Source: Sulfurospirillum arcachonense DSM 9755
GTDB taxonomy: Bacteria > Campylobacterota > Campylobacteria > Campylobacterales > Sulfurospirillaceae
NCBI RefSeq assembly: GCF_000597725.1
Contig: NZ_JFBL01000013.1
Location: 1-64,000, forward strand
Reading direction: 5' to 3'
Length of the DNA: 64,000 nt
The notes under the pieces: model-generated
The model's database searches: none
What the model was told of the DNA's origin: nothing
What the model saw: the letters and a program-made list of their open reading frames with translations, nothing else
Translations under genes and position numbers: made by a program
In this document: positions 9,076 through 17,092 of the stretch, piece by piece
How the letters are laid out: every line of letters starts with the position of its first letter
Numbering within the stretch: position 1 is the stretch's first letter

Positions 9076-9786
9076 ATGACAAAACAGCTTATTATGATAA
9101 CTTCAGTCCTTAGCACATCTTTATTTGGAGCAACAGATGCTCAAATAATAACCTACTTTGAATCTAAAATTCCTGTCCCTACAGTCAAAGTCGATATCTC
9201 CTCAAGAGTTTCTATTGCTAATATAAAAGATATGGATTATGTTTCGCTTAATATAAGTGATGGCACAAGAGTTCAAAAACTCTCTGTATTTACTCAAGGA
9301 GATCTAATTTTTCCTGATGTCATTAGTGTAAAAGAGGGAAGTATAAAAGATAAACTAGATAAACAAAAACTAATACGAGAATTATCTATACTCTATAAAC
9401 AAGAAGATAAAAACAATATTATAACCTTAGGAGATGATCCTCAAAAAGAAACATTAGTAAAATTTACAGATCCTGAATGCCCATTTTGTTATAAAGAAAT
9501 ACAAAAAATAGAAACGAAACTTCAAACATATAATTTAAAACTTATATTTACACCTGTACATGATAGAAGTTCATTGGAAAAATCAGTTCTTATTTATAGA
9601 CAAACTAGTAAAGCAAAAGATTTAGGCAAAAAATTACAAATTATTAAAAAATATTTTAATAGCGATGTAGATGAAAAAGTAAGTGATGAAGAAGTACAAA
9701 ATATAGAAAATTTAATAAAAAAATACTTTGCAGCTGGTCTTGAAGGTGTTCCTTTTTATGTAAACGAGAAAGAATTATTACAATAA
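9076..9786 (+). CDS. Periplasmic thioredoxin-fold protein, DsbC/DsbG-like
   Basis: A 236-residue exported protein with a signal peptide of about 18 residues. An N-terminal region (20-110) resembles the dimerisation part of DsbC-like isomerases. A thioredoxin fold follows, with the CPFC redox pair in DPECPFCYKE and GVPF supplying the cis-proline. By family it shuffles or reduces disulfides of periplasmic proteins. The ribosome site AAAGGT precedes the ATG. It is the second CPFC protein in the window, after the DsbA-like one at the left edge. Confidence 0.8.
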   Translation: MTKQLIMITSVLSTSLFGATDAQIITYFESKIPVPTVKVDISSRVSIANIKDMDYVSLNISDGTRVQKLSVFTQGDLIFPDVISVKEGSIKDKLDKQKLIRELSILYKQEDKNNIITLGDDPQKETLVKFTDPECPFCYKEIQKIETKLQTYNLKLIFTPVHDRSSLEKSVLIYRQTSKAKDLGKKLQIIKKYFNSDVDEKVSDEEVQNIENLIKKYFAAGLEGVPFYVNEKELLQ

Positions 9787-9828
9787 ATAAAAAAAAGGTA
9801 TAATACTTGATTAAAATAAGGAGTATTA

Positions 9829-11844
9829 ATGTTCAATATACCCGATGTTTTTTTATTTATTATTATATTTATTTTAATTGTCTTACTTGTTCTAAAATCA
9901 AAACAGCTTAAAAAAATAAGTTCAAAATCAGAAGATTTAGATACTGTTTTAAATGCTATAAATTTACCTATTTTCTATAAAGATAAAGAAGGTAACTTTA
10001 AAGGCTGTAATAAATCTTTTAATACAAGTTTTGGTAACTTCAAAAAACAAGCGATAAAAGAACTCAATCAATTTAAAACTTCTCAAACAAAAGAAATAGA
10101 CTTAATTTATGATAATGATATTACAAAAGCTACTATAGTCAACTTTACAAACTACCTAAATGGTTCGATTGGTGTTTTATTTGATACAAGTGAAATGAAA
10201 AGTAATAAAGCAAAAATAATCAAACAAAAAGAAAATTTAGAACTTATTTTAAAAGGTTCACGTGAAGGTTATTGGGAATGGGAAGTAAAAAATGACAAAC
10301 TTATCCTCTCAAAAAAAGCAAAAGAAATTTTAGGTTACTTAGAACATGAAAAAGCCCCTGATAATATAAAAAATTGGCTCAATTTAATAGAATCATATGA
10401 TATAGCTTCAACTAACGAAGCAATTGCTGCACATCTGGCAGGTAAATCTCCTTATATAGATGTAGAGCATAGACTTAAAACATCACTTCAAGAAGTATGG
10501 GTTAATTTTAGAGGTAAAGGTATATATGGACCAAACAATGAAATAACTAAAATCTATGGAACTATAAGAGACATAAGTTTACAAAAAACAGAATTAACAA
10601 AAATAAAACGTCAAAGAGATTTGTTTATGACATTTATGGATAATTTACCTGCTCTTGCTTTTATGAAAAATCAAGAAGGAACATATTTATATATAAATAG
10701 CTTTTTCCAAAAGTTATTGGGTTTTAAACCGTGGGAAAATAAAAAAATCAAAGATCTATTTAATGAAACCGTAAGTAAAAATATAGAAAAAAGTGATCGA
10801 GAAGCTTTTTATGAAGGTATATTTAAACACGAAGAATTAATCCCTAATGAAGAAGGAGTTAATAAACTCTTTGAGACTTATAAATTCCCAATAGAAAATG
10901 ATAGTGAAAAAGTTTTATGTGGTTTTGGGCTAGATATAACCAAAGAAAAAGTTTATCAAGATAAAATTAATCTTTACGCAAAAGTATTCAATACCACTAC
11001 AGAGGGAATGATTATAACAGATGATAAAGCAAATATTGTATCTGTTAATAGTGCCTTTACAAAACTAACAGGATATAGCGAAAAAGATGTTTTAGGTAAA
11101 AAACCTAGTATACGAAAATCTTTTAAACATTCTTCTGCTTTTTATCAACATATGTGGAAAGACTTACTCACTCATGGAAGCTGGACAGGAGAAATGTTTA
11201 ACAAAAACAAAGATGGGACAATTATCCCTGAGAGAATGAGTATCAATGTAGTTTTAAACGATAAAAAACAAATAATAAATTATGTTGGAATATTTCAAAA
11301 TATACAAGAACAAAAAAATATAGAGGGCAAACTTAAAAAAATGGCTCATTATGACTTGCTTACAAACCTTCCAAATAGAACTCTTTTTTATGACAGATTA
11401 GATAAAGCAATACAAAGATCTGATAGAGAAGATAGTATGTTAAGTATAATTTTTATAGATTTAGATGATTTTAAGCAAATCAATGACACTCAAGGGCATA
11501 GTAATGGCGATATTGTTTTAGCTACGATATCAAAACGATTAAGTCATGTAGTTAGAGAAACTGATACTATTGCAAGACTTGGTGGTGATGAGTTTGTTGT
11601 TATATTAGAAAAAGTGAATCAACTCACAGATGTTTCAACTATCGCTCAAAAAATCATTGAAGAAATTGGAAAACCTATAAAACTCTCTACAAATGAAAGT
11701 TGTACCATCAGTGGAAGTTTAGGAATAAGTACCTATCCAAACCAAACCAAAAATAAAAAAGAGTTACTAGAGTTTGCTGATAATGCTATGTACGAAGCAA
11801 AAAATACTGGTAAATGTTGTTACATATTTTACACTCCAAGTTAA
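9829..11844 (+). CDS. Membrane PAS-PAS-PAS-GGDEF diguanylate cyclase
   Basis: 671 residues. One N-terminal transmembrane helix (about 5-24) is followed by a degenerate PAS-like segment and about three clearer PAS domains (roughly 140-250, 270-380 and 385-500, the last with TDDKANIVSVNSAFTKLTGY). A GGDEF domain with an intact LGGDEF active site forms the C-terminus. RETD lies five residues before GGDEF, matching the RxxD inhibitory site for product feedback. It should make c-di-GMP in response to a cytoplasmic signal. No EAL domain follows; an EAL-HDOD protein is encoded about 1 kb away. Confidence 0.92.
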   Translation: MFNIPDVFLFIIIFILIVLLVLKSKQLKKISSKSEDLDTVLNAINLPIFYKDKEGNFKGCNKSFNTSFGNFKKQAIKELNQFKTSQTKEIDLIYDNDITKATIVNFTNYLNGSIGVLFDTSEMKSNKAKIIKQKENLELILKGSREGYWEWEVKNDKLILSKKAKEILGYLEHEKAPDNIKNWLNLIESYDIASTNEAIAAHLAGKSPYIDVEHRLKTSLQEVWVNFRGKGIYGPNNEITKIYGTIRDISLQKTELTKIKRQRDLFMTFMDNLPALAFMKNQEGTYLYINSFFQKLLGFKPWENKKIKDLFNETVSKNIEKSDREAFYEGIFKHEELIPNEEGVNKLFETYKFPIENDSEKVLCGFGLDITKEKVYQDKINLYAKVFNTTTEGMIITDDKANIVSVNSAFTKLTGYSEKDVLGKKPSIRKSFKHSSAFYQHMWKDLLTHGSWTGEMFNKNKDGTIIPERMSINVVLNDKKQIINYVGIFQNIQEQKNIEGKLKKMAHYDLLTNLPNRTLFYDRLDKAIQRSDREDSMLSIIFIDLDDFKQINDTQGHSNGDIVLATISKRLSHVVRETDTIARLGGDEFVVILEKVNQLTDVSTIAQKIIEEIGKPIKLSTNESCTISGSLGISTYPNQTKNKKELLEFADNAMYEAKNTGKCCYIFYTPS

Positions 11845-12571: not shown

Positions 12572-13800
12572 AATGGTATAACTCAGTAATAACAAAAATA
12601 TCTATAATTTTTGCAATAGCTATGATGGGTTTCTTTGCCATTTTATTCATTTTTCATATCCAAATACTAAAAGCACAAACTGAACAAATGCAAAGATTTG
12701 CTCAAGTTGTATTTAATTCTGCCTACAACCAACAAAGTGGTGATTTTAACATGCAACTTCTCAAAAAAGAAGGTTTTGAATTAGTTACAGATACAAACTT
12801 AAAACAACAAATTAGAACAGCACTCCAACTTCCACCAGAACGAAGACATATGCGAAGACACAATAACAACTTAAGACTTCGAGCAATAGAGTATAAAAGA
12901 GATTTTTATATAGCACTGCGAGGTGGGATGTTTTTTAAAGCTCCTCATGAAAAAAACATGCTCCCTCTAGTATTGCTTCCTACCATTGCTGTATTATTAC
13001 TTCTGTTTTTATATATAGCGATTATTAGAAGTATCCTGCCTATTTATGGACTTAGACAAAAAGTAAAAGAGTTTGCTGATGGCAATTACGATATAGATTG
13101 TAAAAGCAATAAAAAAGATGAAATTGCAATTTTATCAAATGAGTTTGACAAAAGTGTCAATAAAATTAAAAAATTGAGAGATTCAAGACAACTTTTTTTG
13201 AGAAATATTATGCATGAACTTAAAACTCCTATTACTAAAGGAAAACTTTCATGTGAAATGATAGAAGAATCAAACTATCAAACAACTCTAAAAAATGTTT
13301 TTAGAAGACAAGAAGCTCTTCTTGAAGAATTTTCAAGAATAGAAAAACTAAGTGCAAATGAGCTTAATATTAATACTCAAGAATACGCTTTAGAAGATGT
13401 TGTAGATTTTTCTCTTGACATATTAACTCATGACAAATCAAATGTTATATGTAAACTAATCCCAATGACCATCAATGTTGATTTTGAGCTCTTTGGTACT
13501 GCTATAAAAAATCTCTTAGATAATGGTATAAATTATTCCGATGATTTACAAGTAACTATAGAATCTACACCAAATCAAATCATCATTTCAAATCACGGAG
13601 ATGAGTTAGAATTTCCCCTTCAAAAGTATGCAGAACCTTATTTTTTAGATGGAAAAAAACAAAGAAGCTCTCGTGGACTTGGTTTTGGCCTTTTTATAAC
13701 TTTACATGTAATAAGACTACATAATATGAAAATAGAGTATAATAGGGAAAACCAGAGGAATATATTTACAATACATGTTAAGAAAATCAGAAAAAAATGA
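12568..13800 (+). CDS. Sensor histidine kinase, ArsS-like
   Basis: The start is a TTG inside TTGA, overlapping the regulator stop. The 410-residue protein has two transmembrane helices (about 10-30 and 132-155) around a periplasmic sensor of about 100 residues, which contains the basic stretch PPERRHMRRH. HAMP, a dimerisation helix with H216 in IMHELKTPITKGK, and an ATPase domain with NLLDNGINY and GLGFGLF follow. IMHELKTPITKGKL is typical of the ArsS kinases of Campylobacterota. A His/Arg-rich sensor would fit pH or metal sensing, but that is inference. Confidence 0.9.
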   Translation: MKWYNSVITKISIIFAIAMMGFFAILFIFHIQILKAQTEQMQRFAQVVFNSAYNQQSGDFNMQLLKKEGFELVTDTNLKQQIRTALQLPPERRHMRRHNNNLRLRAIEYKRDFYIALRGGMFFKAPHEKNMLPLVLLPTIAVLLLLFLYIAIIRSILPIYGLRQKVKEFADGNYDIDCKSNKKDEIAILSNEFDKSVNKIKKLRDSRQLFLRNIMHELKTPITKGKLSCEMIEESNYQTTLKNVFRRQEALLEEFSRIEKLSANELNINTQEYALEDVVDFSLDILTHDKSNVICKLIPMTINVDFELFGTAIKNLLDNGINYSDDLQVTIESTPNQIIISNHGDELEFPLQKYAEPYFLDGKKQRSSRGLGFGLFITLHVIRLHNMKIEYNRENQRNIFTIHVKKIRKK

Positions 13801-14380
13801 AAAGAAAAGAGCTATAGCGCTTGCAGCCATTCCACTACTAGCGCAATCAGGATTAGCTAAAACTTCTGTAGAATCAATTGCTTTAGCTGCAAATGTTGCA
13901 AAAGGAACAGTTTATCTCTACTTTAAAACAAAAGAAGAAATTATTTTAGAAATTTGGAACTATGTCATGGAATTATTAGATGAAAATAGATCTAAAAGAT
14001 TTAAAACATGTTCTTCAGCTGCACAAAAACTTGTAGTATATTTTGATTTTTCTATCCTTGAAAAGTATCATTCAATGGATATACTTTTAAAATTATTCGC
14101 TATGAATATGTCTATTATTTTAAATTTTTCTCATCATGGGCTTATTCAAAATTTTAAAGATGAGAGAAAAAATGAATTATATGAAATAGAAAAAATTTTA
14201 AGAGAAGGGGTTTACTCAAAAGAGTTTAAAGATATAAATGTTGAACTTATTGCTGAACTCTTTGCAGATAGTTTTAAAGGAACTATTATAAATGCCATAG
14301 CTATTGGTAAAAACATCGATGAAATAAGAGCTGAACTGCACCCTCAAAGGGATTATCTTATAAGCTCAATCAAATCTTAA
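13775..14380 (+). CDS. TetR/AcrR-family transcriptional regulator
   Basis: 201 residues starting 26 bases inside the kinase gene in another frame. An N-terminal helix-turn-helix (about 14-60) ends with NVAKGTVYLYFKTKEEI, the hallmark of TetR repressors; the C-terminal ligand region is not diagnostic. A later Met would delete the DNA-binding domain, so the overlapping ATG is the right start. No efflux gene, the usual TetR target, follows; the next gene is an RNA helicase with its own leader. Co-expression with the two-component pair is likely. Confidence 0.88.
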   Translation: MLRKSEKNEKKRAIALAAIPLLAQSGLAKTSVESIALAANVAKGTVYLYFKTKEEIILEIWNYVMELLDENRSKRFKTCSSAAQKLVVYFDFSILEKYHSMDILLKLFAMNMSIILNFSHHGLIQNFKDERKNELYEIEKILREGVYSKEFKDINVELIAELFADSFKGTIINAIAIGKNIDEIRAELHPQRDYLISSIKS

Positions 14381-16351: not shown

Positions 16352-16396
16352 TTGACATACTTAGTAATGTTCGTTATAATTATGAACATATGTTCA
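16352..16396 (+). promoter_or_regulatory. Consensus sigma70 promoter with GAACAT/ATGTTC operator
   Basis: TTGACA (16352-16357), a 17-base spacer and TATAAT (16375-16380) form a perfect promoter. A 14-base palindrome, TGAACATATGTTCA (16383-16396), covers the expected transcription start. An extra half-site, ATGTTC, sits in the spacer at 16367-16372. The shape resembles operators of ArsR/SmtB metal-sensing repressors, so expression is probably repressed until a metal or thiol signal appears. No such repressor gene is present in the window. Confidence 0.65.
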
Positions 16397-16435
16397 AATT
16401 ATTATTAAACATAAAAATTAACTAAAGAAGAAACT

Positions 16436-16588
16436 ATGCAAGAAAAAATTATGGCATGTAACAATAGTACATGTATAAAAAGTACTGAGTGTGAAAGATA
16501 TGATTTATTTAAAAATGAAGTAAAAGAGTTTACAACTAATGGAGGAACAAAAGAAAAAGGTTGTAAAAAATTTATACAAAAAAAATAA
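16436..16588 (+). CDS. Tiny Cys-rich protein, possible metal or Fe-S ligand
   Basis: 50 residues, starting MQEKIMACNNSTCIKSTECE and ending near KGCKKFIQKK. Three Cys occur as C-x4-C-x5-C, with a fourth near residue 43. AAAGAAGAAAC lies just before the ATG. It is the first gene behind a perfect promoter with a palindromic operator, which supports it being real despite its size. The Cys pattern suggests metal or cluster binding. I do not recognise the family. Confidence 0.6.
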   Translation: MQEKIMACNNSTCIKSTECERYDLFKNEVKEFTTNGGTKEKGCKKFIQKK

Positions 16589-16603
16589 CCCTAAATTTAT
16601 ATT

Positions 16604-16717
16604 ATGAAATAATTTTTACTGCAAAAGACGATAACTATAAGACATGGTGCTGATGATATGACTCTATAAGAAGTATATCAGGCTTATTAAAACAACAAAT
16701 TGAATTACAATATTTAA
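16604..16717 (+). pseudogene. Decayed small reading frame interrupted by three TAA codons
   Basis: From the ATG at 16604, one frame reads MK-stop-FLLQKTITIRHGADDMTL-stop-EVYQAY-stop-NNKLNYNI-stop. All internal stops are TAA, one base from AAA, GAA or CAA. The remaining sequence looks protein-like, so this may be a remnant of a gene that lay between the Cys-rich and NifX-like genes. It is short, and chance cannot be excluded. Confidence 0.3.
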
Positions 16718-16726
16718 GGATAAAAT

Positions 16727-17092
16727 ATGAAACTAGTATTCCCAACAGATGCAAATGATGGCTATTTAAGTAAACGTGGTGCTCACTTTGGAAAAGCAAA
16801 ATTTTACACTATCGTAACTTTAGAAGATGACAAAATAATTAATGTTGAAGGTATCCAAAATCCTGGTCATAAAACAGGTGCTTGTACTAATGCCATTGAC
16901 AATATTATGAGTTTTAACCCTGATGCGCTTATCGTTGGTGGGATTGGGGGACGCCCTGCTGAAGGTTTTGCTAAAGCTGGATTATCTGTATACTTTGATC
17001 AAACTAGCCCAACAGTTCAAGATAGTTTAAAACAATTTTTAAATAATAAATTAGAAAAAAGCACTGGTCAGGGTACTTGTAGCCATAATTAA
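16727..17092 (+). CDS. NifX/NifB C-terminal-like protein (Nitro_FeMo-Co family)
   Basis: 121 residues, single domain, resembling the dinitrogenase iron-molybdenum cofactor family (MTH1175-like). Visible features are a start MKLVFPTD, the family-typical HFG (AHFGKAKFYTIV), a GHKTGACTNAI segment and VGGIGGRPA, ending with CSHN. Members bind or carry metal clusters; free-standing ones occur in organisms without nitrogenase. No nif genes are seen here. AAGGAT precedes the ATG. With the Cys-rich gene and metal-sensor-like operator upstream, a role in metal or cluster handling is plausible. Confidence 0.8.
   Translation: MKLVFPTDANDGYLSKRGAHFGKAKFYTIVTLEDDKIINVEGIQNPGHKTGACTNAIDNIMSFNPDALIVGGIGGRPAEGFAKAGLSVYFDQTSPTVQDSLKQFLNNKLEKSTGQGTCSHN

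Follow-up and report, generated by a model that had tools for sequence, protein, structure and literature searches.

A palindromic promoter element that accompanies DUF134/UPF0251 genes is a candidate operator for a small four-cysteine protein and a NifX-family protein in Sulfurospirillum arcachonense

Among the described systems closest to the locus considered here, MrpORP is an iron-sulfur carrier with a NifX/ORP-like C-terminal domain, and, according to a title cited in the same report, the orp operons of Desulfovibrio are sigma54-controlled (PMC6345978). IssA, which belongs to the NifX/NifB domain family without being a nif protein, stores iron and sulfur as thioferrate and is listed, under its earlier name SipA, as sulfide-regulated (PMC5524996). 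The DUF134/UPF0251 (COG1342) proteins, a poorly studied family, are found in bacteria and archaea; we found no operator, regulon or target described for them in the open-access literature (subscription papers lie mostly outside this coverage), where no paper naming DUF134 is about a regulator by its title and the mentions of UPF0251 and COG1342 are incidental. Here we analyse a promoter in a stretch of 64,000 nucleotides of S. arcachonense DSM 9755 (hereafter the window). The occurrence of its palindrome suggests a recognition site accompanying DUF134/UPF0251 in many sulfur-metabolising bacteria, and hints at what this family binds and controls.

The first-pass annotation of the window had reported a perfect TTGACA-N17-TATAAT promoter, a palindrome over its start region, an ATGTTC half-site in the spacer and two genes downstream, and all of these were located where it had placed them. 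The sigma-70-type promoter occupies 16352-16380 of the forward strand (TTGACA at 16352-16357, a 17-bp spacer, TATAAT at 16375-16380). Directly 3′ of the -10 box lies the main operator, TGAACATATGTTCA (16383-16396, strand not assigned), a candidate DUF134 site. The promoter match alone is unremarkable for the window, where a second perfect match is found elsewhere and shuffled sequences yield 1.77 matches with at most one mismatch, but the palindrome is unusual, with an expected count of 0.06 over the whole window at the same tolerance. Indeed, TGAACATATGTTCA is the sole exact copy in the 2.66-Mb genome, and with a matrix built from DUF134 promoters it scores 23.8 bits, against 10.2 for the runner-up in the 64-kb window. 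The ATGTTC half-site (16367-16372, forward strand) obtained no score as a full site with this matrix; it reads as the remnant of a decayed upstream operator copy, since exactly 23 bp separate it from its counterpart in the main operator (16390-16395).

The first gene downstream (16436-16588, forward strand) encodes a protein of 50 residues, which we call CysSmall. Its size had been given correctly in the first-pass annotation, and its cysteines had been read as C-x4-C-x5-C, that is three; the conserved cysteines are four (8, 13, 19 and 43). They are part of a set of residues that is invariant in 11 homologues (C8, N10, C13, C19, R21, G36, G37, C43 and F46). Searches of CysSmall against Pfam, NCBIfam and PDB sequences returned zero matches, and the structure predicted for it (mean pLDDT 53.3) is of insufficient quality for use. 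However, homologues across several families of the order keep the four cysteines, and we therefore regard CysSmall as a real gene. A distant four-cysteine homologue is also found among phage-like genes, including a phage-type integrase, on contig 7 of another genome (G004, L090:7850-8065). In one alignment (A6), the member from G004 came from a wrong stretch and was left out.

The second gene (16727-17092, forward strand) encodes NifXb, a protein of 121 residues. The Nitro_FeMo-Co membership proposed for it holds: it passes the PF02579 profile with 49.2 bits, above the gathering cut-off of 26.3. Residues H20, H48, C53 and C118 are unchanged across 43 homologues and would suit a metal or cluster site, and the protein ends in LEKSTGQGTCSHN, with a cysteine-bearing GTCSHN tail. 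The intergenic gap between the two genes measures 138 bases; nevertheless, as no terminator-like site was found between them, CysSmall and NifXb may share one transcript. The description of this region as a stretch without nif genes is correct for the window, where the NifX-family copy stands alone, without the nifEN or nifB neighbours that go with NifX proper. It does not extend to the genome: contig 1 carries four further PF02579 genes in what appears by sequence to be a nif cluster with NifB, so the organism probably has nif genes outside the window.

How widely is the palindrome distributed? We collected 80 DUF134 loci from a species-level genome collection, 76 of them with sufficient upstream sequence. 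The exact core ACATATGT, the most enriched 8-mer upstream of DUF134 genes, occurs within 130 bp upstream in 47 of these 76, whereas random stretches of the same loci would give 0.43, although this is not a count of independent events because many loci are related MAGs. A scan with the matrix, which was derived from those very sites, gives 29 loci with two sites and 22 with a single one, each class representing 0.4% of the controls. The other 25 genes have no site; many of them have coding sequence directly upstream, and not every one was traced to its operon promoter. Paired operators are spaced by 22-23 bp (17 loci) or 32-34 bp (10 loci), two classes whose difference, roughly one helical turn, fits dimers on one face of the DNA.

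In the DUF134-led clusters the upstream order is TTGAC, spacer palindrome, TATAAT and second palindrome, and the layout of the window promoter recurs 5′ of DUF134, CysSmall and NifXb genes in relatives, where type-B DUF134 genes, too, have a site in the neighbouring promoter region. Both the palindrome and the small gene, whose lack of conservation would have counted against the first-pass annotation, are thus conserved in relatives. Beyond the phylum, GGACATATGTGC is found upstream of DUF134 in a Thiodictyon, and GGGCATATGCTC and GAGCATATGCCC in two Spirochaetes. Two Sulfurimonas-labelled MAGs (L171 and L179) have three operator copies before DUF134 and a SLAC1-family gene upstream.

The genome of the window itself encodes a DUF134/UPF0251 (PF02001) protein of 196 residues, our regulator candidate, on a contig other than that of the window (contig 4, about 141.6-142.2 kb). 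It scores 67.1 bits against DUF134 (cut-off 27) and weakly against sigma-70 region 4. Its N-terminal part is the DUF134 helix-turn-helix of the sigma-70 region 4 type, with a structural likeness to that region, and its C-terminal part is predicted to adopt a NifX/ORP fold. The sequence likeness of this C-terminal half to NifX proteins is weak (hhalign probability 74). In the predicted model (mean pLDDT 78.8, pTM 0.52), the domain aligns with TM1816 (1o13) with a VIA-align Z of 13.4 over 101 residues, and with NifX with a Z of 10.8. A common fold does not imply a common ligand. Remote matches of the model to integrases and RuvC were dismissed as reflecting a common fold arrangement.

This DUF134 gene stands alone, with a SLAC1-family gene and a DUF6858 gene in divergent orientation to it. 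The arrangement of a SLAC1-family transporter followed by DUF6858 and divergent from DUF134 (L092:10354-11736) is also seen in G003 (L120). The intergenic region contains a site of its own, TTGACATATGTTCA, which overlaps the SLAC1 -35 box; with 13.4 bits it is weaker than the window operator, and its position suits the divergent SLAC1 promoter better. Near-matches to ACATATGTKC fall inside ORFs in eight cases in this genome, and between genes they were found only at the window operator and in the DUF134/SLAC1 region.

In several relatives, a single cluster contains DUF134, CysSmall, a pair of MinD/CbiA-type P-loop ATPases that bear ferredoxin inserts, a second NifX-like protein (NifXa) and NifXb, and DUF134 clusters often add a SLAC1-family transporter, a split ArsP-type permease, TrmO or a cytochrome c. 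The pair of the window, which had been taken for a stand-alone small module and whose conservation was to be checked in relatives, indeed has homologues of both members there, joined in these DUF134-led clusters. This is the ancestral operon context, and the pair reads best as a piece detached from the DUF134/MinD-ATPase/NifX cluster. Detached genes sit at the same helicase-adjacent place elsewhere: directly behind a DEAD-box helicase gene lie CysSmall in G006 and G010 and NifXb in G003. A search of the genome of the window yielded no close ATPase homologue; the best matches are short and weak (35-46% over 39-61 residues).

Some further arrangements were seen. At a contig end of G048 (L072:about 9690-10110), NifXb is directly preceded by a DUF134 fragment that contains a stop; a full DUF134 cluster is present on another contig, and the fragment would be a partial duplication or a product of decay. 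In Sulfurovum and related MAGs (L219, L226, L227, L228 and L229), DUF134 operons with a single or double operator include NifX, DUF4492 and cytochrome bd genes, and in G003, G007, G009 and G010 cydAB adjoins genes of the module.

It is likely, in our judgement, that a DUF134/UPF0251 repressor, equipped with a NifX-like sensor domain, has the palindrome as its operator and controls a module for the handling of clusters or metals. Dimers of the 196-residue DUF134-NifX protein would bind TGAACATATGTTCA directly after the -10 box; in most relatives they would find a further copy within the -35/-10 spacer. The bound protein would block RNA polymerase, resulting in repression. The likeliest ligand of the NifX-like domain is an iron-sulfur or metal-sulfide species, or else the domain would sense a redox, sulfide or respiratory change that alters or acts through such a species; repression would then be lifted, and CysSmall and NifXb would be made and would bind or pass on the metal or cluster. 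What the sequences show is the operator, its conservation and its link to DUF134 genes, the NifX fold predicted for the C-terminal domain of the regulator, and the ancestral operon; we infer the binding by DUF134, the repression, the ligand and the functions of CysSmall and NifXb, the repression from the position of the operator copies in the spacer and directly after the -10 box, and the ligand from the fold and the context. The metal- or cluster-handling role proposed in the first-pass annotation is plausible on these grounds of family and fold. Its general interpretation, an operator-controlled promoter with a conserved palindrome serving a small cysteine protein and a NifX-family protein, is retained, whereas the class of the operator and the isolation of the module are not.

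That class had been given as a metal-sensor-like operator, on which an ArsR-family repressor would bind the 6-2-6 inverted repeat and be released by metal. SmtB/CzrA-type ArsR operators have short TGAACA inverted repeats, and TGAACA-N2-TGTTCA does resemble their half-sites; moreover, an ArsR gene beside a heavy-metal ATPase (contig 4, 114.7-114.9 kb) has three CATATG motifs upstream. We nevertheless regard this reading as very improbable. The site tracks DUF134 (PF02001) genes across genera, and the motifs near ArsR genes are devoid of GAAC/GTTC arms and score less than 2 bits with the matrix. The genome-wide search for the operator near an ArsR/SmtB gene gave no such pairing: the two ArsR-type genes that were found are located elsewhere, with no matching site, neither intergenic site has an ArsR gene nearby, and the one other than the window operator is that of DUF134/SLAC1. 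The CATATG motifs on contig 4 near 115 kb (L250:1989-2040) include an inverted repeat, CATATGTAA-N4-TTACATATG, unlike the DUF134 operator. Control of the window promoter by the TetR-family gene two genes upstream (13775-14380) seems hardly credible: it has in its favour the proximity of a helix-turn-helix protein, but the DEAD-box helicase gene intervenes between this gene and the promoter, and the operator recurs before DUF134 clusters elsewhere.

Two other readings keep the link to DUF134 in part. An unlinked regulator common in the Campylobacterota could bind the site and control both the DUF134 clusters and the detached genes, DUF134 then being a target; adjacency cannot separate autoregulation from co-regulation. 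This we consider improbable, for DUF134 is itself a helix-turn-helix protein, the same or a related site precedes DUF134 outside the phylum, in Gammaproteobacteria and in Spirochaetes, and detached genes in genomes where DUF134 is undetected have a decayed operator or none. Indeed, detached genes keep the operator in the DUF134-bearing genomes (that of the window, G003 and G010), while in G006, where DUF134 was not detected, the copy has decayed (scores of 7.5 and -8.4, against 24), and no operator was found at the detached genes of G024, G039, G041 and G042, in which no DUF134 was found. There are exceptions, as G052 and G033 have DUF134 and yet a CysSmall or NifXb without operator. Alternatively, DUF134 would bind the site, but the signal would be oxygen, sulfide, NO or another respiratory cue, and CysSmall and NifXb would protect or repair clusters. 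These signals are serious alternatives because the DUF134 operons of some Sulfurovum MAGs continue into DUF4492 and cydAB, and the cydAB neighbours in four other genomes point the same way. We think this rather unlikely, though less so than an unlinked regulator: the NifX fold of the regulator's domain hints that a metal or cluster species is bound there, and no CydA match was found in the genome of the window, which, as a search with a single query, is weak evidence; from the same result, cytochrome bd would be at most a lineage-specific member of the module. The metal or cluster reading and the respiratory one overlap, because clusters often report such signals.

With the DUF134 repressor as the preferred reading, a broader view can be put forward tentatively, and we would not rely on it yet: DUF134/UPF0251 proteins may be widespread autoregulated repressors, in which a NifX-fold domain, fused or encoded as a separate neighbour, would report the iron-sulfur or thiometallate pool, and which would control cluster-handling proteins and, in some lineages, a cytochrome bd switch. 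Several genera conserve the 14-bp site, and two other phyla offer hints of it; with such a site the DUF134 family becomes directly testable. It also gives a handle on the role of many NifX-like proteins outside nitrogenase, and the module is linked to the cytochrome bd oxidase in some sulfur-metabolising Campylobacterota.

How does the system compare with those already described? With IssA, NifXb shares the NifX/NifB domain family; IssA has a Gly-rich C-terminal region (PMC5524996), whereas NifXb has the cysteine-bearing C-terminus given above. NifXb aligns with the C-terminal part of MrpORP at 37.1 bits, against an equivalog cut-off of 450, and is a single-domain protein, without the fused P-loop ATPase. 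The SmtB/CzrA-type operators differ in that the regulator neighbouring the site is DUF134, not ArsR. The likeness to the ORP complex of Desulfovibrio lies in the relatives, where a NifX-fold protein goes together with MinD/Mrp-type ATPases that contain ferredoxin inserts, and in the C-terminal domain of the regulator, which aligns with ORP 2wfb at a Z of 12.1. The two ferredoxin-containing MinD-type ATPases encoded with ORP have counterparts in the relatives, and no close ones were found in the genome of the window; furthermore, sigma54 control, as given for orp in the cited title, contrasts with the sigma-70-type promoter and DUF134-type operators found here. The regulator of this genome is itself a member of the DUF134/UPF0251/COG1342 family, whose members head operons in the relatives.
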